A stretch of DNA of 64,000 nucleotides, from NCBI RefSeq assembly GCF_011065895.1, contig NZ_JAALCR010000001.1, forward strand, positions 372,001 to 436,000. The letters run 5' to 3'. Of this stretch, positions 3,065-17,924 are shown in pieces. The position numbers and the translations under genes are program-made. Under the pieces are notes generated by a model that did no database searches, was not told where the DNA came from, and saw nothing but the letters and a program-made list of their open reading frames with translations. Source of the stretch: Paludisphaera rhizosphaerae. Its GTDB lineage: Bacteria; Planctomycetota; Planctomycetia; Isosphaerales; Isosphaeraceae. Positions within the stretch are counted from its first letter, which is position 1; each line of letters begins with the position of its first letter.

Positions 3065-3067
3065 TTT

Positions 3068-4306: not shown

Positions 4307-4312
4307 TAGAAT
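4307..4312 (+). promoter_or_regulatory. Candidate -10 (TAGAAT) upstream of 4,409 gene
   Basis: TAGAAT is preceded by TG but no convincing -35 is visible 17 bases upstream. It lies in the divergent gap between the DUF932 gene and the gene at 4,409. Confidence 0.3.
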
Positions 4313-4408
4313 GGGCGGCGAAGTCAGGGGAGGAGCGGCGGCTGCACAAGCGCAGCGCGGAAGCTGGCGCGTCGCGACCTTGACGAGGCGGCGGCCCGGG
4401 GGCTCGAC

Positions 4409-4802: not shown

Positions 4803-5263
4803 CAGCCGCCCCGCGCCTTGCTATCACGGCGTTCGCCGGCGATCTCCCCCGCCAGCCGCTGCACGGCGGTGCGGCCCTCGGGCGTGCCCGGCGCGGTCCA
4901 GGCCTTGACTCGCTCGGCGTAGCGCACGCCCTCCGCCTGCATCGCGTCCTTCTCGTCGCGGCTGGGGGGCTGGTCGTCGGCGAAGGCGATGCCCGCGGCG
5001 GAGTGGTCCTTCGCCTCCAGCACGCGGACGCCTTCCTGCGGGTAGCTGGCGATCGGCTTGAAGCGGTCGGCCCATTTCGGCGAGGACGGCCCCGGCTCCT
5101 GCACGGTCGGCTCGGGCTGGGGCGCGGCGGCGTCCGCGCGGTGCTCGTCCAGCATGACGGCGGCCTGGGCGTCGCTCAGGCCTTCCATCGCGGTCGCGGC
5201 CGCGTCGCCCGCCGTCGTGACGGTCGCGGGGAAATCGGGGTGGTGTCTCTTCTTGCGCGGCAT
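4799..5263 (-). CDS. Hypothetical acidic protein
   Basis: 154 residues beginning MPRKKRHH, with a very good ribosome site (AAGGAGG, 6-7 bases before ATG). The N-terminal half is Ala/Asp/Pro-rich and probably disordered. A short segment WADRFKPIASYPQEGVRVLE may fold. The C-terminal third carries helical charged sequence. No known domain. It lies directly downstream of the tRNA-like gene on the same strand. Confidence 0.65.
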   Translation of the reverse strand: MPRKKRHHPDFPATVTTAGDAAATAMEGLSDAQAAVMLDEHRADAAAPQPEPTVQEPGPSSPKWADRFKPIASYPQEGVRVLEAKDHSAAGIAFADDQPPSRDEKDAMQAEGVRYAERVKAWTAPGTPEGRTAVQRLAGEIAGERRDSKARGGW

Positions 5264-5282
5264 GTCGCCTCCTTGCGATGTT

Positions 5283-5356
5283 TGGAGCGAGAGGTCGGAG
5301 TCGAACCGCCCGTCTTCGGCTTATTGGGCCGCTGCTCTGCCTTTGAGCTACCTCGC
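5283..5356 (-). tRNA. Degenerate tRNA-like gene, predicted anticodon AAU (Ile)
   Basis: The minus strand folds as a cloverleaf: acceptor GCGAGG pairs with CTCTCGC near the 3' end, the D arm is GCTC-AAAGGCA-GAGC, the anticodon arm is GCGGC-CCAATAA-GCCGA, the variable loop has 5 bases, the T loop is TTCGACT, and TCCA follows the acceptor, so CCA is encoded. Odd points are one missing base between acceptor and D stem, C instead of U at position 33, mismatches at 27-43 and 50-64, and an AAU anticodon that bacteria rarely use. It may be a decaying tRNA, a tRNA mimic or a specialised RNA of the element. Confidence 0.55.
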
Positions 5357-5407
5357 GTTCGTTGGTGCGGCGGGCCGGACGCTACCCCGACTGTGGTCTT
5401 TCCCTAG

Positions 5408-5572
5408 TCAGCGGATCTGGTCCGCACCATCCAGAAATCGGTTTACATCTGGCTTACCGTGCCGGAACCCATCCTTACCCGCTGCATCGCCCGGCAATTG
5501 GGACCAGATTTCGCGAGTCGCCTGCAGCGTGTCTGCTTTCCACGCCTCCGCCGCAAGCCACCCATAGCGCAA
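5408..5572 (-). CDS. Possible small protein with non-canonical start
   Basis: The frame reads RYGWLAAEAWKADTLQATRE and ends DVNRFLDGADQIR, which looks like real protein (Trp, Tyr and charged residues, amphipathic helix). A TTG at 5,572 gives 54 residues. Four codons upstream an ATC (5,584) sits 6 bases after a perfect GGAGG site (5,595-5,591), so initiation at a rare ATC codon is a possibility. It follows the gene at 5,586 with almost no gap. Confidence 0.4.
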   Translation of the reverse strand: MRYGWLAAEAWKADTLQATREIWSQLPGDAAGKDGFRHGKPDVNRFLDGADQIR

Positions 5573-5585
5573 CCGCGCGGCGATG

Positions 5586-5765
5586 TCAAACCTCCGGTTC
5601 GAGGCCGCGCTTGTCCCGCTCGAAATAGCGGTAGGCCCGCTCGCGCGTGCCCTCGACGCTGGGCGCGACCCCGCCCTCCGCCGCCGATTGATGCGCGTAG
5701 GCCCAGAAGGCCAGGACGTGGAAACGGTCGGACCAGAAGTCTTCGTCGATCTCGTGATTCGGCAT
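5586..5765 (-). CDS. 59-residue hypothetical protein
   Basis: Starts MPNHEIDEDFW with GGGA upstream. It is aromatic and acidic at the N-terminus (FWSDRFHVLAFWAYAHQ) and basic near the C-terminus. No known family. It belongs to a run of tiny minus-strand genes from 8,134 down to 5,408 that looks like one transcript. Confidence 0.55.
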   Translation of the reverse strand: MPNHEIDEDFWSDRFHVLAFWAYAHQSAAEGGVAPSVEGTRERAYRYFERDKRGLEPEV

Positions 5766-5812
5766 ATCGATATCCCAAAAGTTGGGGCGGGCCGCAGCCC
5801 GCCCGAGTTGAA

Positions 5813-6190
5813 TCATGCGGCCCTGGCCTTGGCGATGGCCGCGAGGGCCTTGGCCCGCGCCTCCGCTTCGCCTTCGGTCAGGGTGATGCCGTGCTTCAGG
5901 TCCTGATCGACCGTCTGTTCCAGCAGGTAATCCAGGGCTTCGAGCAGGCTGGCGGCGGCATCGAGCATCCGGCCGGGCTCGAAGTCGATCGCCCTGGTGT
6001 AGATGAACAGGTCGTCGCCGGGGACGTCGACGAGCGCGCCGAAGTCCGAACCGTCGCATTCGTGGATGTCTTGCGCCTCGTCGAGGGTCAGCTTGGACGC
6101 CGCTTCGGCGGCGGCCTCGTGGCTCTCCGCCTCGATTCCGGGATAGTACAGACGCAGTTCGCGGAAGATGTGGACGTTGTATTTGGTCAT
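5813..6190 (-). CDS. Hypothetical protein, MTKYNV family member 1
   Basis: 125 residues. The ATG at 6,190 was preferred to one at 6,196 because GAAAGGGG then sits 8 bases upstream. The N-terminus MTKYNVHIFRELRLYYPGIE resembles MRKYNLN of the next gene upstream. Residues 20-60 contain a helix and an acidic strand (EAQDIHECDGSDFGALVDVPG); the C-terminal half is a long Ala/Glu helix. Similar short proteins occur on phages and plasmids, with no assigned role that I can name. Confidence 0.65.
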   Translation of the reverse strand: MTKYNVHIFRELRLYYPGIEAESHEAAAEAASKLTLDEAQDIHECDGSDFGALVDVPGDDLFIYTRAIDFEPGRMLDAAASLLEALDYLLEQTVDQDLKHGITLTEGEAEARAKALAAIAKARAA

Positions 6191-6192
6191 GG

Positions 6193-6540
6193 TCATTCCC
6201 CTTTCAATCGTTCAATCAATGGCATGGCTATGATGTTCCACCAATCGGCATGCTCCAGCGCGATGCGCCGCAGCGCCTCGATATCCTGGGTGATCGCCGC
6301 GTTGTGGACCCATTTGCGAGAGCGTCCGGCTTCAAGGGCATTGAGAAGATCGGGAGCCGCCGCGAACAGTCGGGCGTTCGCCTCCGCCTCAAGCTCGGCT
6401 TCCACGCCGGATTCGTTCCAGCGTTCCACCTCCGCGATCTGATCGCCGCTGGCGTTCGTCACCGAGAACACGCTGTCGCAGTTGCCGGAAATCTCGTACG
6501 CCCAGGGGCTTTTCGAATGGTTGAGGTTGTATTTGCGCAT
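6193..6540 (-). CDS. Hypothetical protein, MRKYNL family member 2
   Basis: 115 residues, start chosen 8 bases after AAAGGAG. The N-terminal half (PWAYEISGNCDSVFSVTNAS) looks like beta strands; then ARLFAAAPDLLNALEA, a phrase common in small phage and plasmid proteins of unknown role, and a helical C-terminus. The last codons, Lys-Gly-Glu-stop, are the ribosome site of the next gene. The stop is 3 bases from the next ATG. Confidence 0.7.
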   Translation of the reverse strand: MRKYNLNHSKSPWAYEISGNCDSVFSVTNASGDQIAEVERWNESGVEAELEAEANARLFAAAPDLLNALEAGRSRKWVHNAAITQDIEALRRIALEHADWWNIIAMPLIERLKGE

Positions 6541-6542
6541 GG

Positions 6543-6713
6543 TCATTCTCCTTTCAGCGTGATGCGTTCTTCGATGCCGTTCGGCAGGACTTCTTCGATC
6601 CAGCCGGGGCGACAGAGCCAGATGTCTTCGTAGAGCAGATTCGCGCGGCTTTCGGCGTGTTCGCGGTCCGTCGCCTTGATGTCGACGTCGATGGATATGC
6701 GGTAGTGCTTCAT
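6543..6713 (-). CDS. 56-residue hypothetical protein
   Basis: Starts MKHYRISIDVDIKATDREHA with GGAG six bases upstream. A beta-alpha-beta pattern is plausible. The C-terminus ERITLKGE is encoded by the same AAAGGAGAATGA signal that starts the following gene, as in its neighbour. No known family. Confidence 0.65.
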   Translation of the reverse strand: MKHYRISIDVDIKATDREHAESRANLLYEDIWLCRPGWIEEVLPNGIEERITLKGE

Positions 6714-6741
6714 GGTTTTCTCCATAGGTTGATTGATTCGG

Positions 6742-7533
6742 TCAGTCGGCTTTCTCGAAGATCATGCAGACGTCGTGCAGGCCCGGGATGAAGCTCGATC
6801 GGTACACCTTCTTCGAGCTGCTGTTGCCGTGGCTGAAGCGGATGACGTCGGTGCAATGCTGCTTCAGGCCCAGCGAGAAGGCCAGCTCTTTCGTGTGATA
6901 CACCAGCGGGACGTACCCGGCCTCGCGGTCGCTGTAGTCGCCCATGAGGACGATCACCTTCCCGCCGGGGTGGATCGCCCCGGCGCAGTTGGCGATCAGC
7001 AGCCGATATCGTTGGAGGAAGGCTTCCATCGTCGGCGTGCGGGAGAGGTCCCTCGGGTCGCTGGTGTAGAGCTTCATCCGCCAGTACGGCGGGTGGATCC
7101 AGGCGACGTCGAACGCGCCCGCGGGCCGGTCGCACGGCTCGCAGGCGTCGACGCCCTGGTGCAGGTCGCTCGACCAGCAGTAGACGTCCAGCTCGCGGCA
7201 GACGTCGCGGCAGGTGCCGCTGCCGGTCATCGGGTCGAAGACCGACTTCGCCCGGAAATACCGGATCAGGTCGCGGATCAGGTTGCCGCCGCAGTTGCCC
7301 GGGTATCCCCGGTCGCCGTAGTCCCCGGCCTCGGCCGAGTGGTACAGGCTCGTCAGGCCCGGGACCGGGCTGCCGTTGATCGGCGCCGCCGGGAGCCTCG
7401 CCCAGCGGGTCGGGTCGCGGTCGGCCGGTCGGGGCATCCTGGCGGGCTCACCGACATGATCGACGTGCGAACGCTTCAGCCTTGGTTGCAGCCGGGCGGC
7501 GTAGAAGGGATTGATCGATGCGATGCCGGTCAT
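6742..7533 (-). CDS. DNA (adenine/cytosine-N) methyltransferase
   Basis: 263 residues with AAGGAG 8 bases before the ATG, which overlaps the previous stop (ATGA). SAM-binding motif I is FDPMTGSGT (about residues 99-107). The catalytic motif IV reads IHPPYW (146-151), in place of the usual DPPY/SPPY. Motif I precedes motif IV. Orphan enzymes like this on mobile elements often protect the element from host restriction or modify its DNA. No cognate nuclease is visible nearby. Target base and sequence cannot be read from the gene. Confidence 0.8.
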   Translation of the reverse strand: MTGIASINPFYAARLQPRLKRSHVDHVGEPARMPRPADRDPTRWARLPAAPINGSPVPGLTSLYHSAEAGDYGDRGYPGNCGGNLIRDLIRYFRAKSVFDPMTGSGTCRDVCRELDVYCWSSDLHQGVDACEPCDRPAGAFDVAWIHPPYWRMKLYTSDPRDLSRTPTMEAFLQRYRLLIANCAGAIHPGGKVIVLMGDYSDREAGYVPLVYHTKELAFSLGLKQHCTDVIRFSHGNSSSKKVYRSSFIPGLHDVCMIFEKAD

Positions 7534-7808
7534 TGTGCGACTCCTTCCGCGCGGGCTTTCTCGAACTTCGCGGCGGCCTTGCGCAGATGCGGCTCGTAGA
7601 CGTCGCCCCGCCAGGAGTTGGAGCCGAATTCCACGTCGCAGTCGGCCAGCTTGGCGATGTCCAGGACGGCGCAGTGATGCGAATGCTCGAAGAGGACGCC
7701 GATCTTCACGCTGGCCTCCTCCCCGGCGTCCCGGAAGACGACGGCGTGGAAGGGCATGCCGGCGATGCCGTTGCGGTGGTAGGCAATGTTGAGGACGGTG
7801 ATCTTCAT
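7530..7808 (-). CDS. Hypothetical protein coupled to the methyltransferase
   Basis: 92 residues from the ATG at 7,808; an equally good in-frame ATG at 7,853 would add 15 residues. Both starts have the same ribosome site because the leader is duplicated. The protein has a small alternating strand/helix look (KITVLNIAYHRNGIAGMPFH, then a V-rich segment, then VLDIAKLADCDVEFGSNSW). The stop overlaps the methyltransferase start. Similar hypothetical proteins occur in bacteriophage-like regions; no function assigned. Confidence 0.65.
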   Translation of the reverse strand: MKITVLNIAYHRNGIAGMPFHAVVFRDAGEEASVKIGVLFEHSHHCAVLDIAKLADCDVEFGSNSWRGDVYEPHLRKAAAKFEKARAEGVAQ

Positions 7809-7870
7809 GGTGCGATTCCTTTCGCATGCGTTGATTAAGTCGATGATCTTCATCTTGCGATTCCTTTCGC
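7799..7870 (-). repeat. Direct duplication of a translation start signal
   Basis: Positions 7,799-7,825 and 7,844-7,870 are 27-base direct repeats differing at only two bases, spaced exactly 45 bases. Each contains GCGAAAGGAATCGC followed by an in-frame ATG. AAGGAA is held between short complementary arms (TGCGA in the downstream copy, and TCGCA), so the ribosome site could sit in a hairpin loop. Confidence 0.75.
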
Positions 7871-7912
7871 TGTGAGGATGGAGGGCGGGCGCTCCGGCCC
7901 GCCCGATGGTGG

Positions 7913-8134
7913 TCAGGCCTCGTCGCGGGCCTTGGGTCGGCTGAGGACGATCCGGCCCGAGAGCGGGATGCTGTGCAGCTGCACGGTGTAGCCGCCGTCC
8001 CGGTTGCTCCAGGCCACGCCCACGCGGTCCCAGTAGCTGGCCTGGTCGTTGCCGTCCCGGACCTGGTAGGCGATGAAGGTCGGCCTGCGGTTCTTGACCC
8101 CCACGTCGGCGGCGTCCGCGTTGCGTTGTTCCAT
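7913..8134 (-). CDS. 73-residue hypothetical protein
   Basis: Begins MEQRNADAADVGVKNRRPTF with AGGAGA upstream. The sequence TFIAYQVRDGNDQASYWDRVGVAWSNRDG continuing to VQLHSIPLSGRIVLS suggests a compact all-beta fold. Closely similar short proteins are common in proteobacterial plasmids and prophages, so this looks like a phage/plasmid cargo family, but I cannot name it. It appears to be the first gene of the minus-strand small-gene run. Confidence 0.65.
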   Translation of the reverse strand: MEQRNADAADVGVKNRRPTFIAYQVRDGNDQASYWDRVGVAWSNRDGGYTVQLHSIPLSGRIVLSRPKARDEA

Positions 8135-8713
8135 GTGACTTCTCCTATCTGTATGAGGCCCCGCCAATCGGGGCCTGATGGGAAAAGCGCCCGAATCCGT
8201 CCAGCCTCGGCGCAGCGCACCGGGCAACCGAAAGCCGGAGGGTCCGCGCGGCGGAAGCCGGCTTGGCAGGTTGCGGGGCGAGGCGACGGATTCAGCGTCC
8301 CCGTTCAGGCCCGATGGCGGGTTCATGAAGACGGGGGAGAAGACGTGGAACTCGACCGGAATCCGCGACCGGAGGGCAGGCCCGGCGGCCCGATCGTCGC
8401 AGACGAGGAGAAGGTGGTTCGCAACAGCGCTTCTGGAGCACCGCCGTTAACCGGCTTGAGGTCATGGGATTGCGGCCGATTCAGTGCGCGACGTCGGGCA
8501 AAACGCCATCTCCGGCGCGACTTTTCGAATATTAGCCTTCGCGCGGCACATGCGGAGAGCAAGGAAGGTCGCGGAGGAGAGGCGATCGCGGCGCATTTGC
8601 CATCTCCGCGCAATAGATGGCGCGCCAAAAAAATCTCACCTGCCCCGGAACATACCTGAGCGCTAAGCTGACCCGACCCGCGACCCCCGATGAATCCCCG
8701 GAAGGAGGAGCCG
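8135..8713. other. Intergenic region between divergent gene blocks
   Basis: About 580 bases separate the minus-strand small-gene run from parB. Both blocks must start transcription here. A GTG at 8,345 with GGGGAGAAGAC upstream opens a 104-codon plus-strand frame to 8,659 (VELDRNPRPEGRPGG...), which I consider possible but weak. A short AT-rich patch (CTTTTCGAATATTAG, near 8,522) stands out in otherwise GC-rich DNA. A centromere-like parS or oriT could be here but no repeat proves it. Confidence 0.4.
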
Positions 8714-9574
8714 ATGACGGTGCGCAACGAGACGAGCCCGGCGATGGAGCCCGAGGAGGACCGCGCCCGACCCGGCCCCTCGGCCGATTCCGCGTCCCCG
8801 TCGAAGTCATGGGCGGAGCTGATCCCGACGCGGGAGATCATCTACGACCCCGCCCAGCCCAGGCTGTCCATCGGCCCGGAGCCGCTGGCCGCGCTGGTCG
8901 AGAGCATCCGCCGCCATTCCATCCTCCAGCCGCTCCTGGTCCGCTGGGACCCCGCGCTCAAGAAATACGTCGTGATCGAGGGGCATCGCCGGCTCATGGC
9001 CGCGAACGAGCTGGCGCTGGAAGCCGTCCCCGCGATGATCATCGACGCGACCGAACCCGCGGACATCCACGCCAAGCAGGTCTCGGCGAACGAGACGAAG
9101 GAGGGGCTCACGCTCTCCGAGCTGGCGAAGGCGTTCCAGCATCAGGCGGAGCTGAGGCCGGACGCGACCCAGGCGGAAATCGGGGCCAGCCTGTCGCTGA
9201 ATCGCTCGAAGACGAGCTTCATCCAGGCCTATTTCGTGGTCGAGCCGCCCGTGAGGGAGCTGGTCGACCAGGGGCTCATCCCGCAGATGGGCCTCTATTA
9301 CCTGGCCCGCACCAACGGCGAGATGCAGATCGAACTGGCCCGCGCCATCGCCGAGGGGCGGATGACGGTCGACGCCTGCAAGGCCCACGTCCACGCCGTC
9401 GTCGGCAAGCAGGCCCGCAGGCCGAAGGGCGGACGGGTCACCCTGAAGCTGGCGGGCGCCACCTTCACCGCCGAGTCGCTGGAGGGCCTGCAGCAGGCCC
9501 TGGACTCGCTGCGGCGCAAGCTCAAGAACGCCGGCTCGCTCGAAGAGCTGGCCGCCCTCCTGAAGGGGGCGTGA
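8714..9574 (+). CDS. parB: ParB/RepB/Spo0J-type partition protein
   Basis: 286 residues, ATG with GGAAGGAGGAG upstream. The ParB N-terminal (CTP-binding/ParB-Srx) domain is clear: YDPAQPR (about 44-50), ALVESIRRHSILQPLLVR, and IEGHRRLMAANEL (88-100). A helix-turn-helix region follows (LSELAKAFQHQAELRPDATQAEIGASLSLNRSK, about 130-165). In its family it binds parS sites and, with ParA, segregates DNA; no parA is adjacent. On integrative elements solitary ParB-like proteins may instead regulate transfer. The C-terminal helical region is unlike chromosomal ParB. Confidence 0.88.
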   Translation: MTVRNETSPAMEPEEDRARPGPSADSASPSKSWAELIPTREIIYDPAQPRLSIGPEPLAALVESIRRHSILQPLLVRWDPALKKYVVIEGHRRLMAANELALEAVPAMIIDATEPADIHAKQVSANETKEGLTLSELAKAFQHQAELRPDATQAEIGASLSLNRSKTSFIQAYFVVEPPVRELVDQGLIPQMGLYYLARTNGEMQIELARAIAEGRMTVDACKAHVHAVVGKQARRPKGGRVTLKLAGATFTAESLEGLQQALDSLRRKLKNAGSLEELAALLKGA

Positions 9575-9683
9575 CCCGTGCGGGCGCCCGATCCGAATCA
9601 AGGCCGCCGCGCGTCTCGCGGCGGTCGCCGAAGCACGCGGGCCCTCGCCGAGGGCCGGCCGTCCTGGAGAAGGGAGCGAGGTC

Positions 9684-9989
9684 GTGAAAGTCCTCTGCCG
9701 CGTCATGCGGCTGCTCTTCCTGACGTGGCTCTTCCGCCGGGGAAGGCCCCCCGACCGGTGGGCCCAGGACCATCCCCTGTTCCGGGTCTCCAGATGGGAC
9801 GCGCTCACCCAGCGCGAGCTGCTGGAGAACACGCTCGCCTTCGGGCGGACCGGGGCGGGCAAGACGTCGTGCATGGCCGGCCTGATCGACGCGTCGATCC
9901 AGGACGGCTGGGGGGGCGTCTTCTTCACCGTGAAGGTGGACGACCCCGACTACTACCGCAGGCTTTACCGGGGGGCGAAAGAGAAATGA
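9684..9989 (+). CDS. N-terminal fragment of coupling-type ATPase (Walker A half)
   Basis: 101 residues from a GTG with GGAGAAGGGAGCGAGG upstream. A short hydrophobic stretch (RLLFLTWLF) is followed by FGRTGAGKTSC, a Walker A motif at residues 53-63, as in TraD/VirD4-type conjugative ATPases. The frame stops at TGA (9,987-9,989), and the same frame continues immediately in the next gene, so this looks like one gene interrupted by a stop codon. Alone it cannot be an ATPase. Confidence 0.75.
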   Translation: MKVLCRVMRLLFLTWLFRRGRPPDRWAQDHPLFRVSRWDALTQRELLENTLAFGRTGAGKTSCMAGLIDASIQDGWGGVFFTVKVDDPDYYRRLYRGAKEK

Positions 9990-9992
9990 GAC

Positions 9993-11183
9993 GTGGACCA
10001 GGAGCCGGAAGGCTTGCGCGTGCTCGGGCCCGGCCGCCCGGAGCGGTTCAACTTCGTCGAATACCTCCACGCCTCGGGCGGCGGCGACTCGTCGTCGGTG
10101 ACCGACGCGATCATGGAGATCGTCGACCTGGCGGACAAGCGGGGGGGAAAGGGCGACAAGGGGAACCAATTCTTCAACCGCTATTCCCGCCGGACGGTCG
10201 CCTCGGCGGTGGACGTGGTGTCCGCGAGCGGCGAGCGCATGTCGCTCTCCGCGATCCTCGACGTGATCACCGGCGCCCCCCAGACGCCGGACCAGGCCGA
10301 CGACCGGAAGTGGCGCGACGAGTCCCGCAGCGCCTACTACTTCCAGGCGGCCGACGACCGGGCGCGGGGCCTGCCCGAGGAGAAGCGCAAGGACTACGAG
10401 CAGGCGCGGGGCTTCTTCTTCGGGGAGTACGCGTCGCTGGCCGGCGAGACCGGCTCCAGCGTCCGCGCCACGATCACCAGCGTGCTCGACCCGTTCAGCC
10501 GCAGCCCGCTCCGCGAGCTGTTCTGCACGACGACGACCTGGAGGCCCGAGGACGCGTTCGAGAAGGGCGACTGGCTGCTGATCGACATGCCGACCCACAA
10601 GTACGGGTTCGCGTCGTCGATGGCCCAGGTGCTGATCAAGTACGCGATCCAGAAGGCGGCCCAGCGCCGCGTCCGGCCCGATCGCCCCTGCCTACTCGTC
10701 ATGGACGAGTGCCAGGAGCTGATGAGCGGCAACGACCAGCAGTTCGCCTGCGTCGCCCGGTCCAGCCGGGTCGCCATGCTGGCGATGACCCAGAACGTGT
10801 CGAACCTCCTGCGGACGTTCGGCGACCCGGACGAGGTGAACTCTCTGGTCGGCAACTTCCGCAACAAGTGGTTCTTCTCCGTCGACGACAAGCCCACCGC
10901 GGAGCTGGCCAGCTTCATGGCCGGGGAGGCGTACGACGTGGCGACCGGCGGCGGGCAGGACTGGGACTACGACCCCTTCGCCCTGTTCGGCAGGGAGAAG
11001 GACCAGCGACAGAACCTGAACTGGCGCGAGGAGCGGCGGGCCGCCGTCGAGCCCGCCGAGTTCGCCCGGCTCCGCACCGGCGGCGCCCACGGCTACGCCG
11101 AGGCCGTCCTGTTCTCGGGCGGCCGCACCTTCAGCAACGGCCTGCATTACCTGCTGGTCAAGATGCCCCAGTGGGACGTCTGA
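9993..11183 (+). CDS. C-terminal part of coupling-type ATPase (TraD/VirD4-like, Walker B half)
   Basis: 396 residues from a GTG two codons after the upstream stop, in the same frame. LGPGRPERFNFVEYL opens the part that normally follows the Walker A segment. Walker B is PCLLVMDECQE (about 232-242). MLAMTQNVSNLL matches the conserved sensor region of coupling proteins, in which TQ precedes the last strand. Coupling proteins bring the relaxase-DNA complex to the secretion channel. No strong ribosome site precedes the GTG, which supports interruption over a natural two-gene arrangement. Confidence 0.78.
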   Translation: MDQEPEGLRVLGPGRPERFNFVEYLHASGGGDSSSVTDAIMEIVDLADKRGGKGDKGNQFFNRYSRRTVASAVDVVSASGERMSLSAILDVITGAPQTPDQADDRKWRDESRSAYYFQAADDRARGLPEEKRKDYEQARGFFFGEYASLAGETGSSVRATITSVLDPFSRSPLRELFCTTTTWRPEDAFEKGDWLLIDMPTHKYGFASSMAQVLIKYAIQKAAQRRVRPDRPCLLVMDECQELMSGNDQQFACVARSSRVAMLAMTQNVSNLLRTFGDPDEVNSLVGNFRNKWFFSVDDKPTAELASFMAGEAYDVATGGGQDWDYDPFALFGREKDQRQNLNWREERRAAVEPAEFARLRTGGAHGYAEAVLFSGGRTFSNGLHYLLVKMPQWDV

Positions 11184-11275
11184 CCGCCGCCTGACCCCGC
11201 CCCTCGACCCCGTTCCATCCAGACGACGCCGAGCGCGCCGGGCGCCCCCCGTGCGCGCCGGCCCCGGAGGAATCC

Positions 11276-11857
11276 ATGCAAGACCAAGGTTACAAGGAGC
11301 ACGAGGGCTTCGGCCTCGCCGAGAGCTTTCGGTTCTCGGCCGGCCTGTTCCTGCTGGCCGTCTTCGCGATGACCACGCCGTTCCAGGTGATCCTCCACCA
11401 CTCGCACGGCTCGCGCTATTTCAAGGGCGGCCCGGTGCTGATCTCGCTGATCGCGACCGTGCTCTGGACGGGCATGTGGCCGGACGCCGATCCCCGCCCG
11501 ATGTTCGCGATTTATTACCTGTTCCTGGGCATGACGGCCGTGCGCGGCCTGCAGTGCCTGCGGCGGCGGTCCCGGCCGCTGCCCGGCGTGCATTCGAGCT
11601 ACAACGGCACGCCCTATCTCCTCACACGCTGGTTCGACGAGCGGACCGCCAAGCACAAGGTGGAGCCCATCCTCCTGCTGCTCGCGGGCGGCGCCGTCCT
11701 GCAGCTCACGGAACCGCTCGGCTGCTTCCTGATGGCGGGCGGGGCCTGCCTGACGGCCGAGACGGCGATGGCGATCGACGCGCAGCGCGCCCGCGACGAG
11801 GCGGTCGCCGACGCGCGGATCGAGGCGGGGATGGCCCGCGATCGGAGGTGGGGGTGA
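11276..11857 (+). CDS. Integral membrane protein, likely transfer-associated
   Basis: 193 residues with GGAGG upstream. Hydrophobic segments occur at about 24-45, 53-68, 77-93 and 128-165, the last probably two helices. The C-terminal 30 residues are charged. No signal of a known family. Position right after the coupling ATPase suggests a role in mating-pair formation or channel assembly, which is inference. Confidence 0.7.
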   Translation: MQDQGYKEHEGFGLAESFRFSAGLFLLAVFAMTTPFQVILHHSHGSRYFKGGPVLISLIATVLWTGMWPDADPRPMFAIYYLFLGMTAVRGLQCLRRRSRPLPGVHSSYNGTPYLLTRWFDERTAKHKVEPILLLLAGGAVLQLTEPLGCFLMAGGACLTAETAMAIDAQRARDEAVADARIEAGMARDRRWG

Positions 11858-11886
11858 AAAAAGAGCCCCGCCGTCTCCGGCGGGGC
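11857..11886 (-). terminator. Hairpin with U-tract on the minus strand
   Basis: GCCCCGCCG pairs with CGGCGGGGC around TCTC, preceded on the plus strand by six A. Read on the minus strand it is a canonical intrinsic terminator, but no minus-strand gene is visible upstream of it. It may stop antisense transcription or act as an RNA stability element in the plus-strand transcript. Confidence 0.6.
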
Positions 11887-11948
11887 GAGCTGTCCAATGC
11901 ATTCGTCCTCTGCGATCCACACATTACCACTTGAGAGAGGGTCGCGCA

Positions 11949-12341
11949 ATGGTGAAACCGCGGGCCGCCGACGGCGGCGAGAGGAAGCGGGCCTCCGCGA
12001 TCGTGCGCGGGGTCTACGACACGCTCGGCGAACTCTACGTTCGCGCGGGCCACGGCGCGGCGGAACTGGCCGCCGCGCTCTACACCGGGAACGCCTACGT
12101 GGCCTACGGGCACGTCAGGCCGAATCCGGAGATGGAACCGATGCAGACGCAGAATCAGGCGCAGGAACAGGAGGCGCAGGCCCAGCAGCAGGCGGCGCCC
12201 CAGCAGGCCGAGGCCGGGATCCAGGCCCAGGAGACCGAGGCCCAGGCGCAGTCGACCAAGGGGCTGGAGCAGCGGCAGGCCTACGTGAAGCCGCCCCAGC
12301 AGGACCAGGCCCAGCGGCAGCGGCAGGGCCTCCGGCAGTAA
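11949..12341 (+). CDS. Hypothetical protein with Gln/Ala-rich tail
   Basis: 130 residues, ATG with GAGAGGG 7 bases upstream. The N-terminal 60 residues form Ala-rich helices (SAIVRGVYDTLGELYVRAGH). From about residue 64 the sequence is low-complexity, with repeated AQAQ and QEAQ and very few hydrophobics, likely disordered. No family recognised. It lies in the plus-strand block of small proteins after the coupling ATPase. Confidence 0.65.
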   Translation: MVKPRAADGGERKRASAIVRGVYDTLGELYVRAGHGAAELAAALYTGNAYVAYGHVRPNPEMEPMQTQNQAQEQEAQAQQQAAPQQAEAGIQAQETEAQAQSTKGLEQRQAYVKPPQQDQAQRQRQGLRQ

Positions 12342-12351
12342 CCAAAAAACC

Positions 12352-12378
12352 GCGCGGGCGGCGCGTCGCCGCCCGCGC
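12352..12378 (-). terminator. Second hairpin with minus-strand U-tract
   Basis: A 12-bp GC stem (GCGCGGGCGGCG / CGCCGCCCGCGC) with a CGT loop, preceded on the plus strand by six A. Same arrangement as at 11,857. Confidence 0.6.
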
Positions 12379-12398
12379 CCTTCCAAATGGAGCGACCC

Positions 12399-12644
12399 AT
12401 GATCCAGCTGCTCTACCAGGTCGACGCGTGGATCGCGGAGGGGTTCGGCTATCGGACGCTCGCCCTCCTGCTCCTCTTCCTCCAGCTCGATCAATTGTTC
12501 GACCGCCACGCGGCCCCCTGGCTGAAGCGACACGTCGAGCCGCGCGTGGAGCGGGCCTGCGTCGGGCTCGGCGTCCGGCTCGGCCTGAGGGGGCGAGGGG
12601 CCCAGGCTCCGGGAGAGTCGACATGCAAGCGTTCGGCCAGCTGA
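12399..12644 (+). CDS. Small membrane protein
   Basis: 81 residues from an ATG eight bases after GGAG. One hydrophobic helix (TLALLLLFLQLDQLF, about 21-35) is followed by a basic amphipathic region (WLKRHVEPRVERACVGLGVRL). No family recognised. Its 3' end overlaps the next gene by 22 bp, as usual in tightly packed mobile-element operons. Confidence 0.6.
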   Translation: MIQLLYQVDAWIAEGFGYRTLALLLLFLQLDQLFDRHAAPWLKRHVEPRVERACVGLGVRLGLRGRGAQAPGESTCKRSAS

Positions 12645-12790
12645 TCCTCTTCCTGATCGTAGCGACCGCCGTCGCGATCTCGATCTTCGCCGCCAAGTGC
12701 GGGGAGAAGGTCGAGGCGCATTTCTCCGACCCCGAAAACGCCGCCAAGGCGGCCGAGGCCCTCAAGCGCCTCGCCAAGAAAGGGAAGTGA
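12623..12790 (+). CDS. 55-residue membrane-anchored protein
   Basis: MQAFGQLILFLIVATAVAIS gives an N-terminal membrane helix, followed by an Ala/Lys-rich amphipathic tail (ENAAKAAEALKRLAKKGK). GGGAGAG precedes the ATG. Unknown family; probably an inner-membrane peptide of the element. Confidence 0.65.
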   Translation: MQAFGQLILFLIVATAVAISIFAAKCGEKVEAHFSDPENAAKAAEALKRLAKKGK

Positions 12791-12793
12791 ACC

Positions 12794-12994
12794 ATGGAAC
12801 TCCTGGGAGCGATCGGCCTGCTGCTTTTGACGTCCACGGTCCTCTGGGCCTGGCTCGGTACGCTTCGCGACAAGCACCCCGTGCTCGACAAATTGATGGA
12901 CTTGGAGGAGCGTCGCTGCGCCGCCACCCGCAAGGGGCTGGGGGCGCTCGGCAAGGCCGCCTTCTTCGTCGGCAAGGCGGCGATCAAGAAGTGA
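12794..12994 (+). CDS. 66-residue membrane-anchored protein
   Basis: MELLGAIGLLLLTSTVLWAW is an N-terminal membrane helix; the rest is a charged helix rich in Lys/Leu/Ala (RKGLGALGKAAFFVGKAAIKK). It follows the previous gene by 3 bases. Same layout as the preceding small protein, and possibly a distant relative or partner. No known family. Confidence 0.65.
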   Translation: MELLGAIGLLLLTSTVLWAWLGTLRDKHPVLDKLMDLEERRCAATRKGLGALGKAAFFVGKAAIKK

Positions 12995-13005
12995 CCGAGG
13001 CCCGC

Positions 13006-13033
13006 GCCGGGCGGCGACTCCCCGCCGCCCGGC
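13006..13033. repeat. Intergenic hairpin in the small-gene operon
   Basis: GCCGGGCGGCG pairs with CGCCGCCCGGC around ACTCCC. No U-tract on either strand, so it is not a simple terminator; it sits about 20 bases before the pentapeptide-repeat gene's ribosome site. Confidence 0.6.
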
Positions 13034-13054
13034 AACCCTCCAAGGAGGCCGAAC

Positions 13055-13537
13055 ATGACCGAGAAACACCTCGCCAAGACGCTGCAGGGCCACAGCGAAT
13101 GGCTGCGGAACCCGTCGACGCGGGAGGGGGCGAAGGCCGACCTCCGGGCGGCGGACCTGCGCTACGCCAACCTCGCCGGCGCGGACCTGCAGTTCGCCGA
13201 CATGCGGGCGGCCGACCTCCGCCACGCGGACCTGAGCGGGGCCAAGCTCCGCAACGCCGACCTCCGGGGCGCGGACCTGAGCCGGGCCAACTGCGAGCTG
13301 GCGGACTTCACCAACGCGCAGATGCACGGCGCCCTCGTGGAGGGGACCAACCTCCGGGGCGCCAACCTGCAGTACACGAACCTGACCGCCGCGTCCGCCG
13401 CGCAGAAGCCCGACGAGGGCGCGCCGGCGCAGGCGGCCGGACGCGAGGGCAACCCGGAGCTGGACCGCCGCCGGGCGCACGTCCCGCCGCCGGCGCGCCA
13501 GGACGGCCGCCGCCAGAAGGGCCCGACCCAGGGGTGA
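13055..13537 (+). CDS. Pentapeptide-repeat protein
   Basis: 160 residues, AAGGAGG upstream. Residues about 27-115 are tandem A(D/N)Lxx pentapeptides (LRAADLRYANLAGADLQFAD and onward), about 17-18 units, which fold as a right-handed quadrilateral beta-helix. The tail from about 120 is Pro/Arg-rich and disordered. Family members include DNA-gyrase-protecting mimics (MfpA, Qnr) and many of unknown role. Here, on a transferable element, protection of topoisomerase or anti-defence action is conceivable but unproven. Confidence 0.85.
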   Translation: MTEKHLAKTLQGHSEWLRNPSTREGAKADLRAADLRYANLAGADLQFADMRAADLRHADLSGAKLRNADLRGADLSRANCELADFTNAQMHGALVEGTNLRGANLQYTNLTAASAAQKPDEGAPAQAAGREGNPELDRRRAHVPPPARQDGRRQKGPTQG

Positions 13538-13540
13538 ACC

Positions 13541-13720
13541 ATGACCGAGTCCGAATCGCCGCAGTACGACGCCGCGCTCAGGCTCGCGATCGAGCTGGTG
13601 AACCGCCTGCAGGGCGGCGAGCCCAAGGCGCTGCTCGTGGGCTTCGCCACCTTCAAGATTTTGGAGCTGATCCGCGATGCACCCGCTTCACAACCGGCCG
13701 GCCGACCCGGCCGTCCATGA
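13541..13720 (+). CDS. 59-residue hypothetical protein
   Basis: MTESESPQYDAALRLAIELV starts 4 bases after the preceding stop. It contains a helix (ALRLAIELVNRLQGG) and a second one (GFATFKILELIRD), then a Pro/Gly/Arg tail. It overlaps the next gene by 44 bp. Short and unknown. Confidence 0.5.
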   Translation: MTESESPQYDAALRLAIELVNRLQGGEPKALLVGFATFKILELIRDAPASQPAGRPGRP

Positions 13721-13874
13721 GGCGTCGATCCGGATGGCCCGCCGCTGCCGCCGAGTCGTGCAGGCCTGCCTGCGCGAGGAGGAGTGGGGCGACGCCGACC
13801 GGGAGTTCTATTCCATCATCCGCGAGGGCCTTGAGGCGCTCGCGTCCCGAAAGAAGGAGGATCGAACGTGCTGA
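13677..13874 (+). CDS. 65-residue helical protein
   Basis: MHPLHNRPADPAVHEASIRM, then ARRCRRVVQACLREEEWGDADREFYSIIREGLEALASRKKE: a charged helical protein with two Cys. Overlaps both neighbours slightly. No family recognised. Confidence 0.5.
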   Translation: MHPLHNRPADPAVHEASIRMARRCRRVVQACLREEEWGDADREFYSIIREGLEALASRKKEDRTC

Positions 13875-14356
13875 GAGACTTCTTGCTGGAGATCGGGTCG
13901 AGGGGCTGGCCGATCGGCCTGGCCTTCACGGCGGCCGCCGTCGGCGCGGTCTTCGCCGCGTCCGCCGCCCTGGCGTGGGCCTGGAACCGCCTGTCCGGCC
14001 GCCGCGCCCGGCGCCTGCTGGCGCGGGCGATGCTGGCCCTGCACTCCGACGCGGAGCTGACGCGGATCGCGGCCGGGCGGGGCTGGATCTCGTCGTCCGA
14101 CCTCGGCCCGCGGCCGGTCGGCGAGCTGGAGCACCGCGTCGACCTGGAGCGCCTCGCCGGGCTGCGCGAGGCGGCGGAGGCCGCCGGCTACGAATACCGC
14201 GCCGCGCGGTCCGAGGAAGGCTATTACACCGTCGCCCTGGTCCGCCGGGACGACATCTGCCACTGCTCGTCGCGCAGCCAGTTCCGCGCGAGCCTGACGG
14301 CGGCCGCGCTGGCGATGGGGGGAGGGCCGTGGAAGCTGCTGAACGAAGACTTCTGA
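13868..14356 (+). CDS. Membrane-anchored hypothetical protein
   Basis: 162 residues from a GTG with AAGGAGGATC upstream, overlapping the previous stop by 7 bases. One membrane helix at about 15-40 (WPIGLAFTAAAVGAVFAASAALAWAW). The C-terminal part (GYEYRAARSEEGYYTVALVRRDDICHC) looks like a small alpha/beta domain. No family recognised. Its 3' end overlaps the excisionase-like gene by 28 bases. Confidence 0.65.
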   Translation: MLRDFLLEIGSRGWPIGLAFTAAAVGAVFAASAALAWAWNRLSGRRARRLLARAMLALHSDAELTRIAAGRGWISSSDLGPRPVGELEHRVDLERLAGLREAAEAAGYEYRAARSEEGYYTVALVRRDDICHCSSRSQFRASLTAAALAMGGGPWKLLNEDF

Positions 14357-14523
14357 TCGACGCCGAGGAGTTCGCCCGCTGGCTGGACGTCTCCGAGCGC
14401 ACGCTCTGGCGGCTGCTCTCGGCCGGCAAGGTGCCGAAGCCGATGCGCGTCGGCCGGTCGACCCGCTGGCGGGCCGAGGAAATCCGGGGCTGGATCGACC
14501 GGGGATGCCCGGCGGAAAAATGA
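14329..14523 (+). CDS. AlpA/excisionase-like helix-turn-helix protein
   Basis: 64 residues from a GTG after GGGGGGAGGG. The sequence FARWLDVSERTLWRLLSAGK, then VPKPMRVGRSTRWRAEEIRGWI, is the standard MerR-like HTH_17 fold of AlpA-type regulators and excisionases: helix, turn, recognition helix, wing with the RW pair, closing helix. In integrative elements such proteins direct excision with the tyrosine integrase or activate its gene. The integrase lies 1.7 kb downstream on the same strand. Confidence 0.85.
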   Translation: MEAAERRLLIDAEEFARWLDVSERTLWRLLSAGKVPKPMRVGRSTRWRAEEIRGWIDRGCPAEK

Positions 14524-14598
14524 CTTGCGCGAACGATCGATCCGTGCCAGCCTCGGCGAATGCTGACGTCGTATCCAATCTCACAAGCCATCCCTTCC

Positions 14599-14645
14599 GT
14601 GCTGCGGGCGCCTCGGCGTCAGCAAACCCCCGGCGTCCGCAGCAC
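14599..14645. repeat. Inverted repeat before the 14,670 gene
   Basis: GTGCTGCGGGCGCC pairs with GGCGTCCGCAGCAC (13 of 14) across a 19-base loop. It lies in the 146-base gap downstream of the AlpA-like gene and ends 25 bases before the next start, so it may be an operator for that protein or a leader hairpin. Confidence 0.6.
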
Positions 14646-14669
14646 CGAACGGATGGACCGAGGTTGATC

Positions 14670-14939
14670 ATGAAATCAAACAACAATATCGGAGACGACG
14701 CATTCGAGGACGAGGCGCCGGAACGCCGCGGGGCGTTAACCCTCTCCCACGAACTATCGAAGGAAATCGATCGCTGTCAGGCGATCCTGAAAGACCACCG
14801 CGGCTTCGCCTTATTCAAGCTCCGCGGGGCCATCGAGTGGGCGGAGACGACGATCCGCTCGGGGAATGCGATCGACATGAGGCCGGCGCTCGAAAACATC
14901 AGGGCGGTCCACTCAGAGCTGGCCGGGGGTGCCCAATGA
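14670..14939 (+). CDS. Hypothetical protein
   Basis: 89 residues, ATG with GAGG upstream. Polar acidic N-terminus, then a long helical region (ELSKEIDRCQAILKDHRGFA ... LENIRAVHSEL). Unknown. Its stop overlaps the following start (ATGA), opening a chain of four coupled genes to 16,184. Confidence 0.6.
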   Translation: MKSNNNIGDDAFEDEAPERRGALTLSHELSKEIDRCQAILKDHRGFALFKLRGAIEWAETTIRSGNAIDMRPALENIRAVHSELAGGAQ

Positions 14940-15547
14940 AGGCCCTCCCGATCCCGTTCACCGCGCCCATGGTCCGCGCCCTGCTCGAAGGCCGCAAGAC
15001 GCAAACGCGGCGGATCATCGAGCCGCAGCCCGTTCTTCTTCCCGACAAGTTCTGGAGGCTGCACGGGGCCGCCTGGAGTGAGGGAATAAGCCGCGTCCCA
15101 GTGATGCCGGGCCATTCGCTAGCGAAGAGGGCCCCCTACGGCCAGGACGGCGACCTGCTCTGGGTTCGCGAAGCTTGGGTGCCGCAGCCCAATCGCGAAG
15201 GCCCGGGCTATCTATCCGACGCTACCTGGTTCCCGCCGGAGTGGGCGGGCCGGTGGGAGTCCGCGATCGACATGCCCCGCGAGTACAGCCGACTGACGCT
15301 GGAAATCACCGGCGTCCGCGTCGAGCGGCTGCAGGAGATCAGCGAGGCGGATGCGATCGCCGAAGGAGCTTGGTCCGGACTTTACGACACGCCGCTCGCT
15401 CCCGACGAAATCCGGCCCGCCTTCACGATGCTCTGGGATTTCCTCTACGGCGAGGGTTCGTGGGACGCGAACCCCTGGGTGTGGGTGCTGGAATTCAACG
15501 TCCACCGCATGAACGTCGACGCCTTCCTGGCCGGGAGGGCGGCATGA
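14936..15547 (+). CDS. ASCH-like phage/plasmid protein
   Basis: 203 residues. The N-terminus MKALPIPFTAPMVRALLEGR, continuing KTQTRRII, is a hallmark of a widespread phage protein family often annotated hypothetical or morphogenetic, related to ASCH domains thought to bind RNA or modified nucleotides. Further marks are GDLLWVREAW near the middle, LEITGVRVERLQEISEADAI, and a C-terminal NPWVWVLEF. Role undetermined; RNA or base-modification sensing is the family-level guess. Coupled to neighbours by ATGA overlaps on both sides. Confidence 0.75.
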   Translation: MKALPIPFTAPMVRALLEGRKTQTRRIIEPQPVLLPDKFWRLHGAAWSEGISRVPVMPGHSLAKRAPYGQDGDLLWVREAWVPQPNREGPGYLSDATWFPPEWAGRWESAIDMPREYSRLTLEITGVRVERLQEISEADAIAEGAWSGLYDTPLAPDEIRPAFTMLWDFLYGEGSWDANPWVWVLEFNVHRMNVDAFLAGRAA

Positions 15548-15930
15548 GCGAGAAGCGCCATTTCTACCGAATGTGGTATCACGCCTACACGATGCAGGCC
15601 GGTTTCGAGATGCGGTTCCAGCTGCAGTTTCCCGGCTGCCGGGAGTTGGAAACTGTGGTGGCGATGGACTGGGATCGGATCATGAAGGGCGAGGTCAAGT
15701 TGACGCCGACCAGCCGCTTCTTCGTCCACTCAGCAAGCCTGCACCTGCTGGAGCCTCGCGTGGGCGACCACGTCCTCGCCGGCGGCGTGATCTTCCAGGT
15801 CATCCCGGACGGCGAACTCATGCGGCACGTCTGCGCCGTCTGCATCTCCGACCTCCGGCATTACGACGGGGTGGAGATCGTCCGCCGCGACGGCAGGCCG
15901 TTCCACTGGCCGGAAAGCGAGGCGGCATGA
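15544..15930 (+). CDS. Hypothetical protein
   Basis: 128 residues coupled by ATGA overlap. The N-terminal half (RMWYHAYTMQAGFEMRFQLQ) is rich in aromatics, then predicted strands (VGDHVLAGGVIFQVIPDGE) and a C-x2-C (HVCAVCISDL). No recognised family; perhaps a small beta-barrel. Confidence 0.55.
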   Translation: MSEKRHFYRMWYHAYTMQAGFEMRFQLQFPGCRELETVVAMDWDRIMKGEVKLTPTSRFFVHSASLHLLEPRVGDHVLAGGVIFQVIPDGELMRHVCAVCISDLRHYDGVEIVRRDGRPFHWPESEAA

Positions 15931-16184
15931 GCATCGAAAAGATCAGCGAGATCGCAGCTAAGACGGCGGTGGAGATCACCGTTCCGATAGCGATGGACGC
16001 CGGCGCGACGGCCTTCTGTGAAGCGATCCCGCTGGACTGGCTGGAGAAGCTTCTTATGGGCCATCACGACGATCACGGAGAGTTCGCTTATTCCGCGTGC
16101 GCTAAGGACATAAAGGCTCGGCTCATCAAGCAAGCCGGCAAGAATCTGTTCTCGAAGCAGGGCAAGAAAGTGCTGCCCGTGTAG
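15927..16184 (+). CDS. Hypothetical protein
   Basis: 85 residues, last of the coupled chain. It starts with an amphipathic helix (MSIEKISEIAAKTAVEITVP). The middle has a His-rich turn (MGHHDDHGE), and the C-terminus is Lys-rich. Unknown. The integrase follows after a 75-base gap with a possible -10 (TACACT, near 16,219). Confidence 0.55.
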   Translation: MSIEKISEIAAKTAVEITVPIAMDAGATAFCEAIPLDWLEKLLMGHHDDHGEFAYSACAKDIKARLIKQAGKNLFSKQGKKVLPV

Positions 16185-16259
16185 AAGACGCCATCTGGCG
16201 CGCTTTGCCTACCGCCGGTACACTGAACCGATCGCCACCATCCCATTGGAGCCGCCGAA

Positions 16260-17690
16260 ATGGCCTCGATCTACAAGCGGTCGTCGGACAAGGGGAAGAA
16301 GAACCGGCCCTGGATGATCGAGTACCTCGACCACGAGGGGAGGCGGGCCTACGCCAAGGGCTTCACCGACAAGGGCCTGACCGAGCAGCTGGCGGCCAAG
16401 CTGGAGAACGAGGTCATGCTCCGCAAGCGGGGGATGATCGACCCGGCGCAGGAGCGGCTGCTGGCGGTCAAGCAGTCGCCGATCGCCGACCATCTGGCGG
16501 CCTTCGAGCGCTCGCTCGACGACACCACCCCCAAGCACCGGCGGCTGACGATGACGCGGGTGCGCCGCCTGGTCGAGGCCTCCGGCGCGGCGACGATCGG
16601 CGAGCTGGAGGCGGAGGAGGTCGAGGAGGCGCTCAAGGAAATCCGCCGTGCCGAAGACCTGGGGGCCCGGACGTACAACCACTACCTACAGGCGGTCGAC
16701 GAATTCGGCAAGTGGCTGGTCGCCTCCAAGCGGCTGTCGTCGAACCCGGTCGCCGGGATCGACCGGCTCAACGCCGAGACCGACGTGCGCCACAAGCGGC
16801 GGGCGCTCACGCGCGACGAGGTGTCGCGCCTGGTCCGGGCGGCACGGGAATCCGGCAAGGAGGTGCAGGGCTACCCCGGCGAGCTGCGGGCCCGCGTCTA
16901 CCTGACCAGCTTCCTGACCGGCCTGCGGCGGCTGGAGCTGGCCAGCCTCACCCCCCGCTCGTTCAAGCTCGACGACGCCCAGCCCACCCTGACGGTCGAG
17001 GCCGCCTGCTCCAAGCACCGGCGCAAGGACGTGCTGCCGATGCACCCGGATCTGGTCGCATGGGTGAGGGAGTGGACGGCCGGCATGGACCCGGACGCGC
17101 CGCTGTTCCCCGGCCTGGCCCGCAAGAAGACCTACACGATGGTCCAGAAGGACCTGGAGCGGGCGGGCATCCCCTACGAGACGCACGAGGGCCTGGCCGA
17201 CTTCCACGCCGCCGGGCGGCACTCGCACATCACGGGGCTGGTCCGGTCGGGCGCGTCGATCATGGAGGCGAAGGAGCTGGCCCGCCACGCCGACATCCGC
17301 CAGACGGCGAAGTACACCCACATCGGCCTGGAGGACCGGGCGGCGGCGCTGGGCAACCTGGCCGCCCCGGACGCATACGCATCCGTTGAACTGTCGGAAA
17401 TGCGTCGGGTTTCGGGCGGCGTCTCCCGTCGCGAGGCGTCGCCGGGTGGCACCGACCCGTCGGAGGGCGACAAGCCGGGAAACGAAAAAACCCCTGATTT
17501 CTCAGGGGTTTCGTCGTCTGCTGTCGTCGGTTGTCGCCAGGAGGCAATCGACGTAAGTAGTGGAGGCGGCGGGAATTGCACCCGCGTCCCGAGAAGCTTC
17601 GGCGAGGGCCTCTACGTGCGTAGCCGATCAATTGGTTGTCGGCGTCGGGGCTCTGATCGGCAAGATCCCCTTCGGCTTAGCTCGTCATGA
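16260..17690 (+). CDS. Tyrosine-type site-specific integrase
   Basis: 476 residues from an ATG; upstream ribosome site weak. An N-terminal arm-binding region (SIYKRSSDKGKKNRPWMIEY), a SAM-like core-binding domain (about 80-165) and a catalytic domain follow. Catalytic residues visible are the first Arg in TGLRRLEL (R223), Lys in SKHRRKDVLPM, the box-II segment FHAAGRHSH, LARHADIRQT and the nucleophile in KYTHIG (Y352). Box II has His and Arg four residues apart (HAAGR) rather than three. From about residue 435 the frame lies inside antisense ssrA, so its last 42 residues come from the attachment gene. Confidence 0.92.
   Translation: MASIYKRSSDKGKKNRPWMIEYLDHEGRRAYAKGFTDKGLTEQLAAKLENEVMLRKRGMIDPAQERLLAVKQSPIADHLAAFERSLDDTTPKHRRLTMTRVRRLVEASGAATIGELEAEEVEEALKEIRRAEDLGARTYNHYLQAVDEFGKWLVASKRLSSNPVAGIDRLNAETDVRHKRRALTRDEVSRLVRAARESGKEVQGYPGELRARVYLTSFLTGLRRLELASLTPRSFKLDDAQPTLTVEAACSKHRRKDVLPMHPDLVAWVREWTAGMDPDAPLFPGLARKKTYTMVQKDLERAGIPYETHEGLADFHAAGRHSHITGLVRSGASIMEAKELARHADIRQTAKYTHIGLEDRAAALGNLAAPDAYASVELSEMRRVSGGVSRREASPGGTDPSEGDKPGNEKTPDFSGVSSSAVVGCRQEAIDVSSGGGGNCTRVPRSFGEGLYVRSRSIGCRRRGSDRQDPLRLSSS
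17484..17511 (-). terminator. Intrinsic terminator downstream of ssrA
   Basis: Perfect 10-bp stem AAACCCCTGA / TCAGGGGTTT with a 4-base loop and, on the minus strand, a run of T after the stem. It lies 50 bases past the tmRNA 3' end and inside the integrase reading frame. In the integrated state it would end tmRNA transcription and stay within element DNA. Confidence 0.8.
17561..17600. other. Predicted right attachment junction (3' end of ssrA)
   Basis: Integrases that target tRNA or tmRNA genes use the T-arm/acceptor end as att core and restore it. The integrase abuts this end, with element genes on the far side. The matching direct repeat should lie left of base 1, so the core length cannot be measured here. 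Confidence 0.6.
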
Positions 17691-17924
17691 GTCTAGCCCG
17701 GGCCTCAACAAGCGGTTTGGCTCAGGCGATCCCGAATTGGCGTCCCTGGCCGGATCTCTCGGGAGAAGACCCGTCGCAGGGCCGGTCGCTGTTTTCAGGC
17801 AGCGAGACGGAGACCAACAGTGTTGTTGGCAGTTAAGTTTTAGTCGGCTTTTTACGAGGCCTGCTGACCAACCTCGGCACGCCACCGTTCACGTCGGACA
17901 TCCGGTCGATCCTGGTTCGCCCCC
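17561..17924 (-). ncRNA. ssrA: tmRNA (transfer-messenger RNA)
   Basis: The 5' end GGGGGCGAACCAGGATCGAC and the 3' end CGCCTCC plus A form the tRNA-like acceptor, and GTGCAATTCCCGCCGCC forms the T arm. CCA is not encoded. The resume frame at 17,830-17,795 is GCC AAC AAC ACT GTT GGT CTC CGT CTC GCT GCC TGA, giving the tag ANNTVGLRLAA, with the usual C-terminal LAA degradation signal. The RNA is 364 bases. It rescues stalled ribosomes with SmpB. The 3' end is the insertion site of the element on its left. Confidence 0.95.

Follow-up and report, generated by a model that had tools for sequence, protein, structure and literature searches.

An integrase gene that appears to span its attachment site, and to be parted from a conserved C-terminal module, in a planctomycete prophage

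The window, a stretch of 64,000 nucleotides from Paludisphaera rhizosphaerae (C1:372001-436000 of an 8.05-Mb genome, here G000), begins inside an integrated element. Its first positions (1..17586), as delimited by two attachment core copies and by gene content, form the right part of a 50.2-kb element at C1:339378-389586. Between the attachment sites, PHROGs matches (20 of the 55 listed ORFs were searched) include the large and small terminase subunits, a portal, a major head/protease fusion and a tape measure, and other genes there encode further tail proteins, primases and a helicase. With terminase, portal, head and tape measure genes between the cores, the element is, by gene content, a tailed-phage prophage. 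A tRNA was matched inside the prophage at 5286-5356 on the minus strand (Rfam, 36.2 bits) and is absent from the ARAGORN calls.

At the right edge of the prophage lies ssrA, the host tmRNA gene, on the minus strand at 17560..17924 (ARAGORN), intact and with the tag ANNTVGLRLAA; Rfam RF00023 places it at 17558-17924 with 146 bits. The attachment junction had been put at 17,561 in an earlier note on this DNA, and we could refine it to a 27-bp core at 17560..17586 (C1:389560-389586), of which an identical left copy (100% over 27 bp) occurs 50.2 kb upstream at C1:339351-339377. The left copy lies outside the window and is not detectable by a direct-repeat scan within it. The genome holds no other copy of the core besides this one, and a 26-base core pattern with up to three mismatches allowed is found in two places. 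With an intact tDNA at one end, a 3' fragment at the other and an integrase inside, the prophage has the make-up of a tDNA-site integrative element of the tmRNA subtype. The 3' remnant of a second integrase adjoins the left core in a different frame (about G000 C1:339051-339380; L009 9052-9380), and ssrA has therefore been used more than once, with an earlier element at the same site. Elsewhere in the window, a 59-nt direct repeat (51308-51366 and 53178-53236) is 81% identical at a spacing of 1870.

The integrase gene (int) occupies 16260..17690 on the plus strand and reads, in the prophage state, as a 476-aa protein. Its catalytic domain, PF00589 (16803..17324, +; residues 182-355), scores 51.5 bits against a cut-off of 27.1. 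R223, R224, H316, R320, H343 and Y352 (the Tyr352 codon at 17313-17315, +, inside PF00589) are invariant columns in a five-member alignment of related integrases. Tyr352 is the putative catalytic residue by its motif, and the roles of the R, H-x-x-R, H and Y motif residues are presumed in the same way. On this domain and residue set, the protein classes as a tyrosine recombinase (phage integrase). A sequence search against the PDB found no solved structure. AlphaFold, run on the window protein with five relatives, gives a helix at residues 357-365 and a pLDDT below 50 over residues 366-476, the model (mean pLDDT 61.5) being a rough guide only. The usual integrase C-terminal helix appears, from this model, to precede the core as helix 357-365.

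As the earlier note had claimed, the int frame crosses the attachment site and runs 43 codons antisense into ssrA. This ssrA-derived 3' end, which belongs to the integrated state only, covers 17559..17690 (+; 43 codons and a stop); residues 434-476, from the core onward, are antisense ssrA and are predicted, as a rough guide from AlphaFold, to be disordered. The antisense-ssrA ends of seven elements measure 43, 43, 43, 24, 53, 94 and 94 codons and the core has no stop in any of its three frames, and it is therefore not in itself remarkable that int runs into ssrA. The frame into the tmRNA, which the note proposed to compare among related ssrA integrases, is conserved in neither length nor phase. 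We considered selection on this frame itself and rejected it; the ssrA-derived end is best seen as a by-product.

A different end appears when the right and left prophage ends are joined at the core in silico, the left copy being the one that the note had proposed to seek. The frame stays open and gives a 497-aa integrase, with 433 residues, then the core-encoded SGGGGNCTR, then AEFDASLYTMCNSVNSACPLSEICRKDAALSEVAARWHLLTPEVRLSILALVRAG and a stop. The 55-aa post-core tail, ending in DAALSEVAARWHLLTPEVRLSILALVRAG, takes the place of the ssrA-derived end and is encoded outside the window at the left end of the prophage (C1:339378-339544, stop included), the element end opposite int. The proposal that the excised form gains a different C-terminus is borne out by this rejoined frame, and its tail is conserved in relatives. 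The rejoined gene supports a C-terminus set by the integration state, in which the excised form would carry the other end; read in silico, the circular-form int frame passes through attP and would end beyond it, following the attP-inside-int principle of phage Mx8. Neither a contiguous attP form nor a full-length int-core-tail ORF in a single frame was found in the viral_contigs, plasmids or phages sequence sets, and we therefore infer excision. The IMG/VR copy of the prophage (50,130 bp) terminates at the int stop and, by arithmetic, begins right after the tail; a tail-model search of that copy gave no match, which is weak as a negative. An integrated gene that looks complete and an IMG/VR copy without the tail suggest why the far tail was missed.

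The last 38 tail residues match 49 of 99 genomes, their own included, at E ≤ 1, the best match outside that genome having an E-value of 2e-8 and 65% identity. A 29-column tail model, built from 16 tails that come partly from the same elements later scored, reaches E ≤ 0.05 in 97 genomes, its own among them, out of 294 drawn from Planctomycetota, a limit at which about 15 of the 294 would be expected by chance. Neither the joined nor the bare tail gave anything above a cut-off in Pfam or NCBIfam. A T-arm-like motif lies within 330 nt upstream of 21/31 tails, against 1/31 with such a motif within 330 nt downstream. Across 11 tails at ssrA-type cores, the 25-codon module has a mean pN of 0.316 and a mean pS of 0.597, with pN below pS in all but one of 55 pairs; the three codon positions differ at counts of 500/379/748, and the tail core motif is, on these substitution patterns, under purifying selection. 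The clean signal comes only from this module. The spacer between core and module is unconserved and pN exceeds pS in 4/55 whole-tail pairs, so that the dN/dS signal of whole tails is weaker. G000 itself holds three more tail-model matches (C3:355629-355715, -; C8:20645-20722, -; C14:112907-112984, +), and the C8 and C14 copies each have an in-phase integrase partner on their own contig.

In two relatives, G001 and G030 (C6), the catalytic domain runs straight into the module within a contiguous ORF, which in G030 ends in DGDLQALVTAWPGLSPETRRQILALATPPSTDS and a stop; the tail is therefore a genuine integrase C-terminus. These unsplit ORFs stop about 180 nt before the ssrA core, and the DNA between stop and core, which in part resembles by eye the linker DNA of split forms, is noncoding. 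The earlier note had held that an integrase stop ahead of the junction in related elements would speak against its reading. Such stops do occur, in G001 and G030, but both integrases carry the tail directly, and what matters most is therefore the tail lost on integration, more than the end gained from ssrA. Both also retain the module after integration, and some elements can thus do without the swap.

If integration cuts one gene, int and tail must share a phase through the core, whichever phase that is. They do so in all 28 same-contig pairs taken as the ends of one element (drawn among the matches listed), and the int frame is open across the core in 26 of them; the G035 int is broken by an early stop, and that of G008 stops 92 nt before the core. 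The 28 comprise five pairs at ssrA, 13 further pairs, two that were re-checked, seven added later, and G284. The ssrA elements whose two ends share a contig agree in all five cases, G000, G002 and G003 in one phase and G013 and G017 in another (the G003 element spans contig ends, the contig being assumed circular). Further agreement was found in 13 of 20 rows tried at tRNA or tmRNA genes, and in G048_C4 and G330 after re-inspection of the core. G048_C4 first disagreed because its core had been set at a longer repeat that lies outside the tDNA, and agrees on a 23-bp tDNA core chosen by eye. G330 first gave no core and has three integrases; the neighbour of tRNA-Leu among them agrees, its diverged core consisting of two exact 12-mers. 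The G351_C6a row was dropped, as the wrong one of two integrases had been used. The seven later pairs (same contig and strand, among the matches listed; G008 is one) all agree on their longest shared word. An automatic pass over 50 loci, which used the first model match per ORF only and so missed G357, added G284. G021 and G044 agree as well and were excluded from the 28, being one element with an identical integrase on split contigs; six tails without a located partner (two in G005, two in G012, one in G019 and one of G021) were not counted.

The attachment genes called by ARAGORN include Glu, Ser, Leu, Gly, Met, Tyr, Lys and Asn tRNAs and a second tmRNA. In G315, two tandem elements at one tRNA-Gly have different phases, and each matches its own tail. 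By contrast, where an integrase end and a tail from different elements lie side by side, the frames match in 1/7 cases; the seven include the disagreeing G157 and G358 rows, which proved to be such junctions (for G157, a frameshifted joined form is an alternative). In G157 (L234, C104) the integrase and the tail lie next to each other in differing frames. On these comparisons, a conserved in-phase tail beyond the core exceeds chance, while running into ssrA alone is unremarkable, and the split int layout recurs, as read from the genomes, in many planctomycete mobile elements, at many tRNA and tmRNA sites and in all three phases. In the integrated state the tail could be read as a short ORF and hence as a separate small gene of the left end, in phase with int by accident; the 28/28 phase agreement leaves this hardly credible, as do G001 and G030, in which tail and catalytic domain are directly fused.

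The DNA ahead of the core carries two predicted structures. A terminator-like hairpin for ssrA lies inside int at 17480..17511, antisense to it on the minus strand (10-bp stem, 4-nt loop, T-rich tail), and an inverted repeat at 17526..17552 lies between this terminator and the core; the corresponding position in relatives is also predicted to form hairpins. Relatives have hairpins at the place of 17480..17511 too, with other stem sequences and changed stem pairs. By an exact-stem rule, terminator-like hairpins with differing stems occur at 17 of 20 chosen sites, and the rule gave none at G001, G030 C6 and one G022 site. As the hairpin is borne by the element, each element seems to supply the ssrA terminator that it displaces. 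A hairpin inside int ahead of the core could also be taken to end translation of the prophage copy, and perhaps of the circle copy, through ribosome loss, the swapped ends then never being made, and the stop before the core in the G008 int frame would fit. The T-rich tail of the hairpin, however, is on the ssrA strand, and purifying selection on the module together with the phase agreement implies that the joined form is translated; we regard an early end of translation as very unlikely.

Integrase phylogeny places the unsplit forms within the split ones. G001 and G030 form a clade (100/100) that is sister to G013/G017/G021 (node 100/99) within the ssrA group, and they are nested among split integrases. 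By parsimony, the split state would provisionally be the older and the unsplit state derived, with several rows of unassigned state. Of the 29 integrase ORFs from 30 loci that passed the filter, 11 have their stop within a tDNA and another 6 read through a whole one; 2 are unsplit, 4 have a nearby, non-overlapping tDNA and 6 have no detected tDNA. The loss of the module could be passive, with the module needed only on the circle, attP lying in the gene through compactness or history, and the loss tolerated without any switch. Such tolerance would suit ssrA-derived ends that differ in length and phase, a prophage form that keeps its catalytic domain and helix 357-365, and the existence of unsplit relatives. 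Against it, all three phases are represented among the many tRNA and tmRNA sites where the split layout recurs, and the tree makes the unsplit form look derived; together these suggest that the split layout is maintained. We consider passive loss possible but somewhat unlikely.

Our preferred explanation, an attP-spanning int with a detachable and functional module, we hold as a whole to be probable. We are highly confident of its anatomy, that is, that int spans attP and that integration cuts off a conserved C-terminal end and leaves its codons 50 kb away. On the circle, int would encode 497 aa with arm-binding, core-binding and catalytic parts, followed by a linker translated from attP DNA that includes the ssrA terminator in antisense, and then by the tmRNA-derived core (9 codons), by a spacer that varies and, at the C-terminus, by the conserved module, some 29 residues long. 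When the phage recombines with ssrA, int would be cut within the core. One prophage end would keep the catalytic residues and the predicted helix 357-365, with dispensable ssrA-antisense codons after them, and the codons of the module would go to the other end, 50 kb off; excision would restore the full-length gene. As the helix seemingly lies before the core, catalysis may be unaffected when the module is lost. We read from sequence the architecture, the agreement in phase, the selection on the module and its contiguity in two relatives; that integrase from the circle and integrase from the prophage would differ in activity is our inference. Integration-state sensing by the integrase is plausible. 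Of its possible roles we favour most that the module tunes assembly or activity: integrase made from the circle would favour integration, and that made from the prophage would be less active or changed until the gene is made whole again by excision, a tentative reading to which we give slightly less than an even chance.

The arrangement has partial counterparts elsewhere. In Myxococcus phage Mx8, according to the relevant passages of a review, attP lies within int and integration creates a new int 3' end, with altered behaviour reported for the prophage form, and Mx9 follows a similar integration principle (PMC6070905). The planctomycete integrases share with Mx8 an attP inside the int coding sequence; unlike in Mx8, the planctomycete tail is conserved phylum-wide, and in the window a tmRNA gene serves as the site. 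Mx8 Int is barely related to the window integrase (blastp E 0.2), its PF00589 match is under the cut-off, and the planctomycete tail model gave no real match to it; its one resemblance is a distant integrase-profile match. Common descent with the Mx8 integrase family, the C-terminal part included, was not found at the sequence level, and we read the post-catalytic stretch STGLEPVLLGS of Mx8 as tRNA-antisense-like. By layout, then, the planctomycete integrases have the Mx8 arrangement, widespread in a bacterial phylum and with a tail unlike that of Mx8, and Mx8 serves as their working analogue. Passages of the Islander paper allow for integrases that extend across attP, naming Mx8 and SSV (PMC4383910).

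In archaeal suicidal integrases of the SSV/pTN3 type, attP also lies in the gene and integration splits the gene between the element ends, so that Int(N) and the catalytic Int(C) come apart; in vitro, the truncated forms reportedly lack activity, and self-disrupting recombinases are called exclusively archaeal in the parts of a 2021 review that deal with them (PMC8371274). Unlike in these, the planctomycete catalytic domain stays whole and only the C-terminal module is lost; we rejected assignment to the archaeal class, as PF00589 and the preceding N-terminal part are contiguous in the prophage. Extracts of one report describe C-terminal segments that control assembly in other tyrosine recombinases, with Tn1549 Int altered in activity by truncation (PMC5871717). 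By position, the Tn1549/Tn916-type helix may correspond to helix 357-365, before the core, and the planctomycete module would be an addition beyond it.

Mycobacteriophage BPs and others have attP in a coding gene at a tRNA site, and integration alters the C-terminus of a lysogeny protein, as described in passages of PMC9262239. By the same logic of integration-dependent immunity, with attP in a repressor gene, the planctomycete tail could be a degradation signal whose removal on integration gives a longer-lived integrase. In the mycobacteriophages, unlike here, it is the repressor gene that is altered, and what integration removes is a degradation tag (same source). The last tail residues vary (AG, TP, QL, GG and others) and the conserved part is internal, and the unsplit relatives keep their tail when integrated, which makes such stabilisation of the planctomycete integrase improbable. 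Beyond these systems, we found no earlier account in planctomycetes, or of such an integrase swap, in a search that had most subscription papers outside it. Planctomycetota may hold a widespread bacterial class of self-splitting integrases, in which attP, with tRNA or tmRNA sequence translated as protein, forms part of the gene and integration detaches a C-terminal control module. Integrase activity would then differ between the free and the integrated element, a directionality switch built into DNA topology; we put this forward with some reserve, as possible rather than established. A phylum-wide set of detachable modules would offer natural replicates and unsplit controls for how a recombinase tells integration from excision.

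At three sites, the core reads as tDNA sense and not antisense (L252, G357 C517; L287, G013 C15; L234, G157 C104), and both core orientations relative to the tDNA seem to occur. The attachment tRNA of another split integrase, on C14 of G000 (L229 2728-3017, -), is interrupted by an insert that matches group I intron RF00028 with 36.1 bits and an E-value of 2.2e-6, below the gathering score of 50, and a like layout is seen by eye in L275.
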